In this document: positions 335 to 5,989 of the stretch, in pieces
Position numbering within the stretch: the first letter of the stretch is position 1
How the letters are laid out: every line of letters starts with the position of its first letter
Source: a virus
Direction: 5' to 3' (one strand)
Virus record (IMG/VR): IMGVR_UViG_3300007735_000520
Span: 1-25,036 of that record
DNA length: 25,036 nucleotides
Translations under genes and position numbers: made by a program
Notes under the pieces: generated by a model
What the model was told of the DNA's origin: nothing
What the model saw: the letters and a program-made list of their open reading frames with translations, nothing else
Databases searched by the model: none

Positions 335-1077
335 TAGTCTGCATTGCAAAAACATTCAAAAGAAGGGTCGCCATCCCATAAGCTTAACTGGCTCTGCGCC
401 TTGGCTCTAAGCGTGTTGTATGTTATTTCCTTTTTAAAACGGTGCCCGCTTGTCTCTTCGACATTTACCCACCAATTAAATAACTCTGGCTTCTCTTTTG
501 CTATAATAGCTAACTTGCCTTTCCCTTTTAAAAAACAACAGTCGCAATTCCCGTAAGGCTCATTTAATTTTAAATTAAAGTCTTGCTGTGCCCAAAAGCT
601 TAGGACCTGCAATTTGTCTACTTTCCATTTAACAAGTGGTAACTCTACGCCTAACTCCTTGGCCTTTGCCCAGCGTCTAGGTTCGTCAAACCTTATACCG
701 TTGTAACTTACATAGTCATTAATGCCAAGGCTCTTTAAATAGCGTCTAAGCGTTTCTATTTTAAGTTCTAGAGTGCAGTAGCGAAATTGCTGGTTAGGGA
801 TGCTGGCGGGCCTTTGTTTGAGCAGTTGGTTAAATGGTTCGCCGTTCCTGCTTGCTGTCTCGTATGTCACTACTTCAAAGGTAGCAGGCTGCCTATATTC
901 TAGCCAAACTATGCCTAAATTCCAGCGCTTGTCACACTCGTTAACAAAGTCTAAAGTCGCTGGCATTTCTTTGCCAGTGTTTTGAAATGTAATTAAATAC
1001 TCGCCCCCTTCGTCTATTAATCGCTTAGCCATATAAGCAGAAGTTCTACCCCCACTAAAGTTTATAACATTAGGCAT
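334..1077 (-). CDS. PAPS reductase / DndC-like PP-loop protein
   Basis: A 247-residue member of the PP-loop ATP-pyrophosphatase superfamily (phosphoadenosine phosphosulfate reductase-like). The N-terminal strand leads into SGGRTS (residues 8-13), the nucleotide-binding PP-loop. An R-Y-C-T motif lies near residue 100, and a Cys cluster (C178, C180, C181) could hold a metal or iron-sulfur centre with C101. Such genes are common in phages; proposed roles include sulfur metabolism and DNA modification resembling DndC, but few are tested. It overlaps the end of the DnaB gene by 8 bases and touches HNH by a TAATG, so it is translationally coupled in the replication operon. No DndD/DndE partner is present. 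The superfamily call is firm, the substrate unknown. Confidence 0.8.
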   Translation of the reverse strand: MPNVINFSGGRTSAYMAKRLIDEGGEYLITFQNTGKEMPATLDFVNECDKRWNLGIVWLEYRQPATFEVVTYETASRNGEPFNQLLKQRPASIPNQQFRYCTLELKIETLRRYLKSLGINDYVSYNGIRFDEPRRWAKAKELGVELPLVKWKVDKLQVLSFWAQQDFNLKLNEPYGNCDCCFLKGKGKLAIIAKEKPELFNWWVNVEETSGHRFKKEITYNTLRAKAQSQLSLWDGDPSFECFCNAD

Positions 1078-2308
1078 TGGTATTCTCCTTGTATAGTGTT
1101 AGTTGCCCCTCGAATGTCGTGGGAATTGTAACGCACTCGCCGTTTCGGTTCTTGCCTATAATTAGCTCAGCCTCTTCTATAACTGGCTTCTCGTCTTGGT
1201 AATATGCTGGACGAAATGGGAATAGCACGCTGTCTGCATCCTGCTCTATTGCGCCTGACTCCCTTAGGTCGCTAAGTAGTGGGCGCTTGTCTTGCCGTGA
1301 CTCACTGGCCCTGCTTAACTGCGCTAGAATTATAACTGTTATGCTTAACTCCTTAGCCAATAACTTTAGGTTTCTGCTAATCTCGGCCACTTCTTGCTCT
1401 CTGTTTTGCTTAGTCCCCTTAACTAACTGAATGTAGTCTATTACCAGTAAGTCTAGCCCGTGCTTGCCTTTGTGCAGTTTAACCTTGGCTTTAATGTCCG
1501 CTATTGAAGTCTCGGCGTCGTCGTCTATGTAAAAGTTAATTGTCTGGCTGTTGGCAATGTTACAGAGTTTGTCTATGTCCTGCTCCTTTAGCGCTCCGTT
1601 ACGCACCTTGTAGTTGGGTATAGAGCCAATGAGGGAAAGGTAACGCTTTGCCAGTTGCTCATTGCTCATTTCAAGGCTTAAAAATAACGCTTTGCCCCCA
1701 GTTGCTGCAAAGTCTTTTGTAAGGCTTAAGGCTAAGGCTGTTTTACCCATTGCTGGGCGTCCTGCTATTACGATTAAGTCGCCACCATTATAGCCTCCTA
1801 AATACTTGTCAAGGAATAACCAGCCAGTAGGTTTGCCAGTTAGGCGCTGCCCTTTCTGTATGTTTTCTACTATTTTGTCTACTACTTTGTTAGTTTCGTT
1901 TACTATGCTGTTAGGAGCCTTAGCGCTGCTAAATTGTGTGCTGTCTAAAAGCTGCTGTACTTCCTGCATTAAACCGTTAAGGTCTTTGTTTAAATTTAGG
2001 TTGCCAAGTCGGTCTATAAACTGAGTGTGCAGGTAATTGTACTCTAATTCTCGCAAATAAGGGCTAATAGAGGACTTATAAGCGACTTTTTGCTGTATGG
2101 TAAGGGTTTCTATTAACTCAGCCCCTTTTAGTGCCTTAGAGAGCCTTATTAACTCAAACGGTGTTCCCTCCAAGTAAAGGGCGGTCATGAGGTTAATTAA
2201 CTTTTGGTGTAATGGCTTTGTAAACCATTGGGGTTTAACCTTGGGTAATTGGTGGTGAAACTCTGGGTAAAAGAGCAACTGGCTTATTATGTGGGTTTCG
2301 GTTTCCAT
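1070..2308 (-). CDS. dnaB: Replicative DNA helicase, DnaB family
   Basis: A 412-residue DnaB-type helicase expected to form a hexamer that unwinds the fork on the lagging strand. A short N-terminal DnaB domain (about 1-100) is followed by the RecA-like motor. Walker A is GRPAMGKT (183-190), SLEMS follows at 211-215, Walker B is around 286-293 (LLVIDYIQL), the ILAQLSR motif is at 328-333, and the DLRESGAIEQDAD arginine-rich motif is at 348-359. It is slightly shorter than bacterial DnaB (about 450-470), mostly at the N-terminus, which is usual for phage copies. It follows the initiator-like gene and the 54-residue gene in the same operon, so a loader-helicase pairing is likely. No primase was seen, so the phage probably uses the host DnaG. 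Confidence 0.95.
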   Translation of the reverse strand: METETHIISQLLFYPEFHHQLPKVKPQWFTKPLHQKLINLMTALYLEGTPFELIRLSKALKGAELIETLTIQQKVAYKSSISPYLRELEYNYLHTQFIDRLGNLNLNKDLNGLMQEVQQLLDSTQFSSAKAPNSIVNETNKVVDKIVENIQKGQRLTGKPTGWLFLDKYLGGYNGGDLIVIAGRPAMGKTALALSLTKDFAATGGKALFLSLEMSNEQLAKRYLSLIGSIPNYKVRNGALKEQDIDKLCNIANSQTINFYIDDDAETSIADIKAKVKLHKGKHGLDLLVIDYIQLVKGTKQNREQEVAEISRNLKLLAKELSITVIILAQLSRASESRQDKRPLLSDLRESGAIEQDADSVLFPFRPAYYQDEKPVIEEAELIIGKNRNGECVTIPTTFEGQLTLYKENTNA

Positions 2309-2309
2309 G

Positions 2310-2474
2310 TTAGTTATAAATTAGTTTTAAGGTGTGGGCTTTTCTAAACGCTGCCTGCTTGGTAGGGTGCTCACTATGCAGCTGCTGCTTAAGGTACACC
2401 CTCCAGACTTCTTTTTCGTTTACTGTGGCTTTAACTATTCTTATGTCGTGGTTAATGTTTACGCTATTCGTCAT
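2310..2474 (-). CDS. 54-residue protein of unknown function in the replication operon
   Basis: A small reading frame that fills the otherwise empty 155-base space between the initiator-like gene and DnaB. ATG at 2474 overlaps the end of the upstream gene by 11 bases, and the TAA at 2310-2312 ends one base before the DnaB start codon. That fit on both sides is the main support for it. The product begins MTNSVNINHD and ends LKLIYN, and is rich in charged residues with KEVWRVYLKQQ in the middle. It has no membrane segment or Cys pair, and I do not recognise the family. From its position a role as a helicase or initiator accessory is possible but not shown. Confidence 0.65.
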   Translation of the reverse strand: MTNSVNINHDIRIVKATVNEKEVWRVYLKQQLHSEHPTKQAAFRKAHTLKLIYN

Positions 2475-3081
2475 TTAAAGAGGCTTTAACGGGTTTAACT
2501 GTTGTTTGTGGTGTGTTGGTATTGTAGTTGCTTTTCCAAGTCCTTACAGCGGCTTTCCAGTCCTTCATTTTGTTTTTACCAATTTGCCAGCCTTTGGCCT
2601 CGTAGAAGTTTACAAACTTTTCGCTCAGGTCCTCCATGCCTTGCTCTTGCATGTAGGCGTTAACCTCTAAGGCTGTTGGTGGGGTAAACCTTGCCGCTTT
2701 TTCTTTTATATTTTCTTTTATTATTACATTGTCATTTACATTTACATTTACATTTACATTGTCAGCTTTTTTGGGTTTTTGAAAAAAGGCTTGGGTTTTT
2801 TGGGTTTCTTCTAAAAAGGGTTGGGTTTTAGGTCTGCCTCCTTTCCTGCCGTTCTCTTTTTGCTTGTCTATGTAGTTCTCATACTTCTTTAAATCCCGCT
2901 TTAATTGGGTTTTAATAGACTCAAAGGCAATGGTTAGAAGCAAGTCGTCGCTCTCTGGGTCTTCGTCGTTTACATAAGCAAAAATGTGCTTAATTAGTTT
3001 GCCTGCCTGCTCGTCTGGTAGCATGTTAAAAACGCCTTGCTGGTCGCAGTACAGAATAAATGATTTTTTGTCTTTAGCCAT
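2464..3081 (-). CDS. Replication initiator / helicase-loader-like protein (DUF6291 + DnaT-like)
   Basis: A 205-residue protein whose N-terminal half (about 6-65: SFILYCDQQGVFNMLPDEQ, then helices) resembles DUF6291. Its C-terminal part (about 150-183: KFVNFYEAKGWQIGKNKMKDWKAAVRTW) resembles the DnaT/DnaD-type C-terminal motif of phage replication proteins. A basic linker (GRKGGRPK at 78-85) and a low-complexity Asn-Val stretch (108-119) connect them. DnaB follows almost directly, which suits a primosome or helicase-loader role; that is inferred from family and context. Its ATG at 3081 is preceded by a structured leader with its own promoter, so this gene probably opens the replication operon. 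Family assignment is by recognition, not search. Confidence 0.75.
   Translation of the reverse strand: MAKDKKSFILYCDQQGVFNMLPDEQAGKLIKHIFAYVNDEDPESDDLLLTIAFESIKTQLKRDLKKYENYIDKQKENGRKGGRPKTQPFLEETQKTQAFFQKPKKADNVNVNVNVNDNVIIKENIKEKAARFTPPTALEVNAYMQEQGMEDLSEKFVNFYEAKGWQIGKNKMKDWKAAVRTWKSNYNTNTPQTTVKPVKASLNDE
2733..2760. repeat. Hexanucleotide tandem repeat (CATTTA)n inside a gene
   Basis: About 4.7 perfect copies of the 6-base unit CATTTA in tandem. On the coding (minus) strand they encode alternating Asn-Val in the linker of the initiator-like protein. Six is a multiple of three, so gain or loss of units by slippage would change linker length without breaking the frame. The flanking sequence contains degenerate further copies. 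Confidence 0.9.
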
Positions 3082-3177
3082 AAAATTAAAGCCCCACCAA
3101 AAAGCCGCGGGGGAGCGCAGGCCTCTTAGCAGGGCAAATTTCTTTTAACCTTTACGAGGTCTCCCCACCTCAGTTAA
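3082..3177 (-). ncRNA. Candidate structured leader RNA upstream of the replication operon
   Basis: The roughly 95 bases between a TAnnTTTG box and the initiator ATG carry several pairings that are strong for their length. GAGGT (3171-3167) pairs with ACCTC (3160-3156), leaving the 6-base loop GGGGAG (3166-3161). That loop is exactly complementary to CTCCCC (3115-3110), so a pseudoknot or long-range pairing is possible. The same C-run can instead pair as CCCCGC (3112-3107) with GTGGGG (3097-3092), a hairpin ending about 10 bases before the ATG and followed by CTTTAATTTT. A third hairpin lies at 3135-3121 (GCC-T/A-GGC with one bulge). Two mutually exclusive folds over the start region are what a riboswitch, attenuator or protein-bound leader would show. 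I do not recognise a known RNA family. Confidence 0.5.
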
Positions 3178-3182
3178 CGCTA

Positions 3183-3190
3183 CAAATATA
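3183..3190 (-). promoter_or_regulatory. Promoter -7 box TATATTTG for the replication operon
   Basis: TATATTTG matches the Bacteroidetes TAnnTTTG element exactly and lies just beyond the stop of the gene ending at 3199. Transcription would start near 3177 and give a leader of about 95 bases. No clear TTTG -33 element was found at 19-21 bases upstream, so the call rests on the -7 box and on the structured leader that follows. Confidence 0.5.
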
Positions 3191-3847: not shown

Positions 3848-4089
3848 TCTCCAAATGTTTCGTTGTAGTACTCTTCCCCATCCATATGTCTTGTGTGAAT
3901 AGGAAATCCATCAACTGCATTAACTATTTCTACCTTGTGCATTGCTTTGGCTTTTATTTTTAGTTCCATGTACTCGCTTACATCTATTGAGATATTAACT
4001 CTGCGAATACTTGTATTTTCCCAAGCATCGCCTTTTTCTTCAAGTTGCTCAATGAATAACTCCACGCTACTTTGTTTATTGTTGCTCAT
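3844..4089 (-). CDS. 81-residue acidic protein of unknown function
   Basis: An acidic protein starting MSNNKQSSVELFIEQLEEKG. A middle helix (MELKIKAKAMHKVEIVNAV) leads to a C-terminal GEEYYNETFGE. That ending (G-E-x-Y-Y-N-E-T-F) is one I recall from many small Bacteroidetes phage proteins of unknown role. It overlaps the DnaA-domain gene by 14 bases and the next gene by 4 bases. No enzymatic motif is seen. Confidence 0.7.
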   Translation of the reverse strand: MSNNKQSSVELFIEQLEEKGDAWENTSIRRVNISIDVSEYMELKIKAKAMHKVEIVNAVDGFPIHTRHMDGEEYYNETFGE

Positions 4090-4546
4090 TGTTTTTCATG
4101 GCCTCCAGTACCATTTTATAGAGTTTAGTTTCGCCCTTGTAGCCAAGGTTTAAATAGTTTGCAAACTGCTGGGCCCCGTGCATTGCACTGGTGTGGTGAC
4201 GGTCAAGTAGGCGCGTCATTTTTGCCCAGCTCAGGTTATACTCATGGCGTGCAATGTACCAGAATAAATGCCGTGCTATTACAATGTTACGCTCACGGCT
4301 TTGGCTCATTAACTGGCCCGCTGTCGTGTTAGTAGCCTTGCAAACCTCTAGCAGTAACTCATTTATTAACTCCTTTTTGGTAAAATTTAGTTTGTACTTA
4401 GGGTTATTAAGTTCTGCTTTTAGCATTTCGACTTCTACATTGTGGCGGCTAATAAGGCGCTCTATTTGTGCCTCGAGCGCCTTTACCTTTTGCCGTGTTT
4501 TGCCGTATAGTATTAAGTAGTCTACCTCAGTTTTTGCCTGCTGCAT
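4076..4546 (-). CDS. DnaA domain IV-like DNA-binding protein
   Basis: A 156-residue protein with an N-terminal coiled coil (about 15-47) joined to a region like DnaA domain IV (about 58-130). In cellular DnaA this domain recognises the DnaA box at the origin. The matching features are the VCKATNTTAGQLMSQSRERNI helix pattern, ARHLFWYIAR, the LSWAKMTRLL helix and RHHTSAMHG (116-124), which corresponds to the DHTTV signature. The AAA+ ATPase domain III is absent, so it cannot act as a full DnaA. It may bind the phage origin, or host DnaA boxes to interfere with or redirect host initiation. It lies in the early operon upstream of the initiator-like and DnaB genes, and overlaps both neighbours. 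Fold assignment is confident; role is inferred. Confidence 0.8.
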   Translation of the reverse strand: MQQAKTEVDYLILYGKTRQKVKALEAQIERLISRHNVEVEMLKAELNNPKYKLNFTKKELINELLLEVCKATNTTAGQLMSQSRERNIVIARHLFWYIARHEYNLSWAKMTRLLDRHHTSAMHGAQQFANYLNLGYKGETKLYKMVLEAMKNNEQQ

Positions 4547-5730: not shown

Positions 5731-5764
5731 AAAAAAAGAAAAACCCCTCAGCATAACCAAGGGG
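5731..5764 (-). terminator. Intrinsic terminator after the helix-turn-helix regulator
   Basis: On the minus strand an 8-bp stem CCCCTTGG / CTGAGGGG (two G-T wobbles) closes on the 5-base loop TTATG. It is followed at once by TTTTTCTTTTTTT (5743-5731). It lies about 50 bases after the regulator's stop and insulates the leftward early promoter from regulator transcription. The plus strand has no T-run, so it should act in one direction only. Confidence 0.85.
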
Positions 5765-5815
5765 CTCCAACATGAAAACAGAATGCTATAAACTAACAAA
5801 TAGCACGCAAATATA

Positions 5816-5989
5816 CTACTCCAGTACCTTTTCTATTGCTCTTATTATTTGCAAGGTCTTAGGCTCACGCTTTTCCCACTTTGTTAGCAGGCCTCGGCTT
5901 ATGCCTACCTCCTCGCAAACTTGGTTTAAACTGGTGTTCTTTTCTATGCAGCGCTTACGCCATTTAACTACTAGGTTCTCGTCATTCAT
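5816..5989 (-). CDS. 57-residue helix-turn-helix transcriptional regulator (Cro/XRE-like)
   Basis: A small DNA-binding protein starting MNDENLVVKWRKRCIEKN. Residues about 19-40 (TSLNQVCEEVGISRGLLTKWEK) form a clear helix-turn-helix: helix, EVGIS turn and recognition helix ending in W-E-K, as in XRE/Cro proteins. It continues with PKTLQIIRAIEKVLE. There is no C-terminal oligomerisation or peptidase domain, so it resembles Cro or a minimal repressor, not a full CI. It is divergent from the recombination operon, shares a 37-base promoter region with it, and ends before a strong terminator. TAAATTTG lies 4 bases before its ATG. Control of both early promoters is inferred from position and from repeated TTTGTA motifs. 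Confidence 0.8.
   Translation of the reverse strand: MNDENLVVKWRKRCIEKNTSLNQVCEEVGISRGLLTKWEKREPKTLQIIRAIEKVLE

Follow-up and report, generated by a model that had tools for sequence, protein, structure and literature searches.

A conserved kissing-loop leader with a terminator-like hairpin, a putative transcription attenuator ahead of phage replication and early genes

The window, i.e. the complete 25,036-nt stretch of the IMG/VR virus record IMGVR_UViG_3300007735_000520, carries on its minus strand a leader RNA in which a hairpin at the predicted start site and a terminator-like hairpin directly upstream of a phage gene pair with each other through their loops. The structure consisting of the two hairpins (H1 and H2) and their kissing loops, as well as the existence of a family of such leaders, can be regarded as essentially certain. 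As had been predicted, this is a conserved, structured regulatory leader, its layout recurring in relatives in which the pairing letters have changed in step. Judged from its sequence, the element probably acts in cis as a transcription attenuator, in the form of a kissing-loop terminator.

Anatomy of the leader in the window

Inspection of the sequence revealed a leader of about 97 nt ahead of the ATG at position 3081. The following features were assigned, all of them on the minus strand:

3183 to 3190, minus strand: -7 promoter box TATATTTG, matching the Bacteroidota primary sigma consensus TAnnTTTG
3178, minus strand: predicted +1, the first G of GTTAAC, inferred from the -12 to -5 spacing (PMC9723704)
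3155 to 3172, minus strand: hairpin H1, 5'-terminal in the RNA and with a 6-nt loop, assigned by folding and by covariation in relatives
3161 to 3166, minus strand: loop L1, GGGGAG, one kissing partner, assigned by sequence and by covariation of the kiss in relatives
3136 to 3154, minus strand: linker of about 19 nt including the conserved GTTAAAAGANNTTT, assigned by alignment
3091 to 3135, minus strand: terminator-like hairpin H2 of about 19 bp, from the MFE fold and conserved in type A relatives
3110 to 3115, minus strand: loop L2, CTCCCC, the other kissing partner, an exact complement forming 6 bp with L1
3082 to 3090, minus strand: U-tract TTTAATTTT, abutting H2 on its 5' side and the ATG on its 3' side, with a T-rich tract also in relatives
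2464 to 3081, minus strand: DUF6291 gene (205 aa; PF19808, E 2.8e-27), the first gene after the leader
1070 to 2308, minus strand: gene of a DnaB-like replicative helicase (DnaB_C, E 6e-86), part of the same run of genes

The TAnnTTTG box named in the original prediction is present as TATATTTG (3190-3183, minus strand). In Flavobacterium psychrophilum this box occupies positions -12 to -5 relative to mapped start sites (PMC9723704), and the same promoter spacing places the +1 at 3178, in agreement with the expected transcript start near 3177. Relatives of type A (see below) likewise have a G at this position, a letter that was fixed by the search pattern. The host probably belongs to the phylum Bacteroidota, judged from the promoter type alone.

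The 5-bp stem of H1 (GAGGT/ACCTC, 3171-3167 with 3160-3156), its six-base loop GGGGAG (3166-3161) and the exact complement CTCCCC (3115-3110) were all seen in the sequence as described earlier. The complementarity of the loop to a downstream segment is therefore real; however, CTCCCC is not free but forms the apical loop of H2 (3135-3091), which reads GCCCTGCTAAGAGGCC TGCG [CTCCCC] CGCGGCTTTTTGGTGGGGC. The pairing had been taken for one between a loop and a single strand because H1 and the complementarity were noticed while H2 was missed, and it is actually a kissing interaction between two loops. An alternative pairing of CTCCCC with GTGGGG (3097-3092), which had also been proposed, is imperfect with one wobble and one mismatch and involves the 3' arm of H2. 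Nor is it conserved, as in none of the 161 elements described below could loop 2 pair over 6 nt with the 3' arm of its hairpin. The idea of two mutually exclusive folds gating the start codon was not supported, since the kiss and H2 stand in a loop-loop relation and do not represent competing arms.

The NCCC end of the linker motif GTTAAAAGANNTTT already constitutes the beginning of H2, and the conservation of this motif was in part imposed by the search pattern. The MFE fold of 107 nt has an energy of -43.9 kcal/mol (z -3.55), and none of 200 shuffled sequences was as stable.

The leader precedes a replication operon, as was stated in the original prediction, the DUF6291 gene being followed by the gene of the DnaB-like helicase. 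The helicase gene run also includes a gene (4076-4546, minus strand) predicted to encode a small protein of the phage that contains the C-terminal (HTH) domain of DnaA, which suggests a phage-encoded origin recognition. Positions 5740-5820 (minus strand) contain a further TATATTTG box, behind which lie a small hairpin and then a strong terminator with a T-run (GCCCC..GGGG), but loop complementarity is absent. This arrangement is conserved in the loci L002 and L008 and is probably an ordinary terminator or small RNA.

Relatives, covariation and distribution of the leader

Relatives were collected from IMG/VR loci with proteins similar to the DUF6291 gene product. These loci have the same upstream layout, and their loops are different yet matched. 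Furthermore, two DNA patterns, in which promoter and linker were fixed and the pairing loops were left free, provided 96 and 76 stretches, most of which contain the element. The layout common to the related phage contigs comprises the -7 box, H1 at the start site, the linker, H2 with the U-tract and the ATG.

Two structural types could be aligned well. The window belongs to type A, whose H1 has a 7-nt loop and whose linker reads GTTAAAAGANNTTTNCCC; in H2 a bulge separates about 16 bp from a further 3 bp that are capped by a 7-nt loop. In type B the H1 loop contains an 8-bp kiss and then ACATTATA, the linker reads AAAGNNNTTATT, and H2 has an internal loop UGAA/GGAU. The conservation of the fixed letters in both types is partly due to the search patterns which imposed them; members found by protein similarity show ACACTATA, ACACCATA, ACAATATA and so on. 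A short leader peptide in H2 of type B (ATGAA...stop) was considered and rejected, as it was not conserved on inspection.

More subtypes were obtained by further protein-anchored searches using a ParB-like/MT-A70 protein and a type B DUF6291 protein as queries. One of them carries GUUAGUA..kiss..CCGAAAGC in H2 (L325, L384, L394, L429, L436). In another one (L333, L334, L335, L339, L360) H1 is longer and is separated from H2 by an additional hairpin, approximately TGAAACAA..TTGTTTCA, with the kissing layout being kept. Loops, stems and linkers differ between the subtypes, and only the architecture is common to all of them.

Free variation of the pairing in homologous leaders without compensating changes had been named beforehand as the finding that would refute the prediction; the pairing was found to be kept with compensating changes. 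In the alignment of 31 type B sequences 95.1% of the cells are paired compared to 67.0% in shuffles, 22 of the 26 pairs have changed on both sides, and the covariation score amounts to 0.763 vs 0.210. Double changes affect six of the eight pairs of the type B kiss, and slid controls collapse. All 13 aligned sequences of type A preserve the 7-bp kiss (100% of cells paired), which does not contain any GU pair and shows changes on both sides in six of its seven pairs, with a type A covariation score of 0.509 vs 0.219 for these 13 sequences. For H1, changes on both sides were detected in all five pairs in the relatives. The covariance models R1 and R2 were built without the kiss and returned about 130 elements, many of which barely differ from one another, and in every parsed element the two halves are complementary over a stretch of at least 6 nt. 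The median energy of the kiss duplex is -9.4 kcal/mol.

The breadth of the family was assessed across all collected loci with a strict detector requiring the promoter box, H1 near the start, H2, a U-tract (at least 5 T in 8), a kiss of at least 6 and a score of at least 40. It identified 161 elements among 3955 distinct -7 boxes and none in dinucleotide-shuffled DNA at the same score. About six of the 161 elements were counted twice owing to tandem boxes, and a few elements lacking a subsequent ORF (L381 minus, L019 minus, L031) are likely to be false positives, leaving about 150 real elements. There are 79 distinct kiss sequences among the 161 elements; 73 elements with 56 kiss sequences originate from loci found only by protein similarity. 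The strict detector replaced two kiss finders, a loose one which was useless alone (195 real vs 156 shuffled) and one applied to gene-upstream windows which was still positive in 10-17% of the shuffles.

A DNA search of isolated phages (INPHARED) did not give any real match. The type A pattern had 40 chance matches in 84,980 genomes, none of them with the structure, which doubles as a negative control. In 395 Bacteroidota genomes neither the type B pattern nor the covariance-model search, which was of low sensitivity with only 10 candidates scored per genome, detected an element.

A same-strand ORF follows H2 in 156 of the 161 elements, its ATG being located 7-48 nt downstream. The distance between H2 and the ATG is type-specific (mostly 7-15 nt in type A and mostly 17-29 nt in type B), which indicates a leader and not a stand-alone RNA. 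The first genes are predicted to encode DUF6291 proteins, other replisome-organiser-like proteins, Lin1244_N, ParB-like proteins with MT-A70, HTH and GIY-YIG proteins as well as many small ORFs. Since these are unrelated, the unit is not tied to one gene product. Besides the DUF6291/DnaT-like genes named in the original prediction, many unrelated genes are preceded by the leader, too.

About nine contigs contain two elements each, often in tandem on one strand and then with a promoter and a kiss of their own; the two kisses always differ. In these contigs (L298, L300, L245, L360, L428, L114, L132, L294/L297) the elements are often located upstream of a ParB-like/MT-A70 gene and a replisome-organiser gene. 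The close relatives L004 and L006 (94% nucleotide identity in the DUF6291 gene) do not have the leader, and their ORFs are separated by 3 nt compared to 117 nt in the element-bearing relatives. According to its absence from these two loci the leader behaves like a discrete cassette. L004 and L006 together with their element-bearing relatives constitute a natural presence/absence pair in which the function of the leader could be studied.

Termination, proposed mechanism and rival explanations

H2 is followed by a T-rich tract throughout, most elements having 7 T in 8, a statistic that is partly built in because the detector demanded at least 5 T in 8. In type A the U-tract runs into the ATG and position -3 is a T in 36 of 41 cases; among 890 other ORFs in these contigs the same position is an A in 485 cases and a T in 123. 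Translation in Bacteroidota is favoured by A at -3, -6 and -11 to -15, and Shine-Dalgarno sites are absent (PMC7366714). The U-tract is therefore kept where translation should suffer, which indicates that it has another job, most simply intrinsic termination. H2 is predicted to have a median energy of -24 kcal/mol in type A and of -17 kcal/mol in type B. As in transcription attenuators, a terminator hairpin and a U-tract are present between promoter and gene according to the sequence anatomy, and an attenuator role of the leader is likely. A classical antiterminator competing for the terminator arm was found in none of the 161 elements, the conserved long-range pairing being the one with the loop.

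The host RNA polymerase would start at 3178 from the Bacteroidota-type promoter and synthesise H1 first. About 40 nt later it would produce H2 and the U-tract, by anatomy an intrinsic terminator directly before the start codon, and the H1 loop would pair with all or nearly all of the H2 loop. H2 is presumed to terminate transcription, so that the gene would be expressed from the leader promoter only by read-through. With less certainty, the kiss may set the read-through ratio while the RNA is being made: loop 2 would dock onto H1 on emerging, the closure of the lower H2 stem would be strained or delayed and read-through would be favoured.

The direction of this effect was judged by geometry. 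A straight rod of H1, kiss and H2 would measure about 92-98 Å, and the linker has a median length of 17 nt in type A and 13 nt in type B. The required extension of the linker (median 5.1 Å per nucleotide in type A and 7.2 Å in type B) equals or exceeds what single-stranded RNA can span, so that the rod would have to bend or the lower H2 stem to open, although this geometry is rough and the conflict would disappear if bulges, or in type B the internal loop, bent the rod. Since the linker is short relative to the rod, docking was judged likelier to hinder the closure of the lower stem than to strengthen the terminator. The kiss is therefore considered more likely to favour read-through, and a tightening of the terminator as the less likely effect. 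The position of H2 within the ribosome footprint in type A may furthermore affect the translation of the read-through RNA, and a trans factor may act on the leader.

The same parts could also serve a promoter-proximal terminator that is bypassed by a loaded protein antiterminator in the style of lambda Q, 21Q or AlpA, the kiss only tightening the default terminator. Although the AlpA and Q targets have the same order of promoter, intrinsic terminator and gene (PMC9371919) and H2 is strong, we consider this unlikely, given that the -7 box is the sole DNA motif common to all subtypes, that a candidate antiterminator gene was not identified and that the loop complementarity would be left unexplained. 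The product might instead be a small RNA that is stable, about 95 nt long and ended at H2, with the gene being expressed by leakage or from upstream promoters. Such a product would agree with the 5'-terminal hairpin, the 3' terminator hairpin and the compact kissed fold, which are typical of stable small RNAs, and with the upstream same-strand genes in the window; leaky read-through could also explain strong terminators directly before a gene. However, the 156 of 161 elements abutting a same-strand ORF at a type-specific distance are leader-like and the variability of 79 loop kinds is ill-suited to a trans target, making a small RNA quite unlikely.

An RNA-only processive antiterminator comparable to HK022 put, where the leader rides the polymerase and terminators including its own U-tract are ignored, seems improbable. 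The put RNAs are about 70 nt long, consist of two stem-loops and occur early in phage operons, putL just after the promoter, but their structure as described does not involve loop-loop pairing (PMC9378689), and a processive element would not need the tandem copies seen on one strand in several contigs, which have a promoter and a kiss of their own. The fact that the loops are the most variable part yet always mutually complementary, and that two elements in one contig never have the same kiss, would suit a control similar to P4 immunity or antisense regulation. In that case a short RNA of a resident phage would pair via its loops with the leader of an incoming phage and force termination, the loop representing the group identity. 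This seems very improbable, since no prophage with the element was found (84,980 genomes with the type A pattern, 395 Bacteroidota genomes with the type B pattern) and antisense -7 boxes are not in excess. Only nine of them were seen where 21.6 were expected, and an antisense promoter was rejected due to this depletion.

Returning to the kissing-loop attenuator, we tentatively suggest a broader reading, which is possible rather than probable: the leaders might form a widespread, undescribed class of RNA gates in Bacteroidota phages, in which the start-site hairpin captures the apical loop of the terminator and decides co-transcriptionally on the transcription of replication and early genes without an aptamer or a competing arm. 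If so, promoter, start-site hairpin and intrinsic terminator would be fused within about 110 bp and, as the kiss sequence is free to vary, each copy would be orthogonal to the others. Gene timing in Bacteroidota phages is poorly understood, and a leader before about 150 genes with very strong covariation provides a concrete handle on it. It makes testable whether tethering of the terminator loop helps or hinders termination. Should the mechanism be true, it would represent a new control of intrinsic termination by capturing the terminator loop instead of competing for its arm, and the freely rewritable kiss would offer orthogonal programmable switches for Bacteroidota.

Comparison with known systems

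The original prediction did not assign the leader to any named RNA family, in accordance with the Rfam scan, which at gathering thresholds had no match in the window or in 12 relative loci. The best sub-threshold score (13.2 bits vs 80 required) indicated a resemblance to Spot 42 that was dismissed as chance. A description of such an element was not found in the main text of open-access journal papers. The suggested metabolite riboswitch did not gain support, as the subtypes have the architecture alone in common and no ligand-binding aptamer core is conserved across all of them; a type-specific ligand is possible, given that the linkers are conserved within a type only.

In ColE1 RNAI/RNAII the 7-nt loops are fully paired in an intermolecular sense/antisense interaction. 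The leader resembles this system in its fully paired loops and differs from it in that both loops belong to one transcript.

In the cobalamin riboswitch the L5-L13 kissing loop joins the aptamer and the regulatory hairpin (PMC10907184). The leader likewise contains a kiss between one of its hairpin loops and that of a regulatory hairpin; however, it has no aptamer, four-way junction or known ligand. The regulatory hairpin of the cobalamin riboswitch is an RBS hairpin, whereas that of the leader is terminator-like with a U-tract. Moreover, the kiss of the leader is fully Watson-Crick, while ligand dependence of the cobalamin riboswitch relies on a bulged kiss.

HK022 put forms an RNA triplex (stem I) and contacts the beta-prime zinc-binding domain, and loop-loop pairing was not reported for it (PMC9378689). 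With putL and putR the leader shares two stem-loops, a length of about 70-95 nt, an early position just after a phage promoter and the occurrence of one or two copies per genome; unlike put it has a kissing pair, freely varying loop sequences and a subsequent U-tract.

The targets of AlpA, lambda Q and 21Q likewise have a promoter and then an intrinsic terminator before the gene (PMC9371919), but they need a protein and a DNA element, and conserved loop-loop pairing is not described there. In Tn916 the intrinsic terminator T1 overlaps the start region of a DNA-processing gene and is antiterminated by canT (PMC11658703). The terminator of the leader adjoins the gene start in a similar way; however, in Tn916 a distinct stretch of RNA of about 450 nt serves as the antiterminator, whereas promoter, H1 and terminator of the leader form one unit of about 110 bp. 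Each of the nearest known systems is thus without a defining part of the kissing-loop terminator leader.
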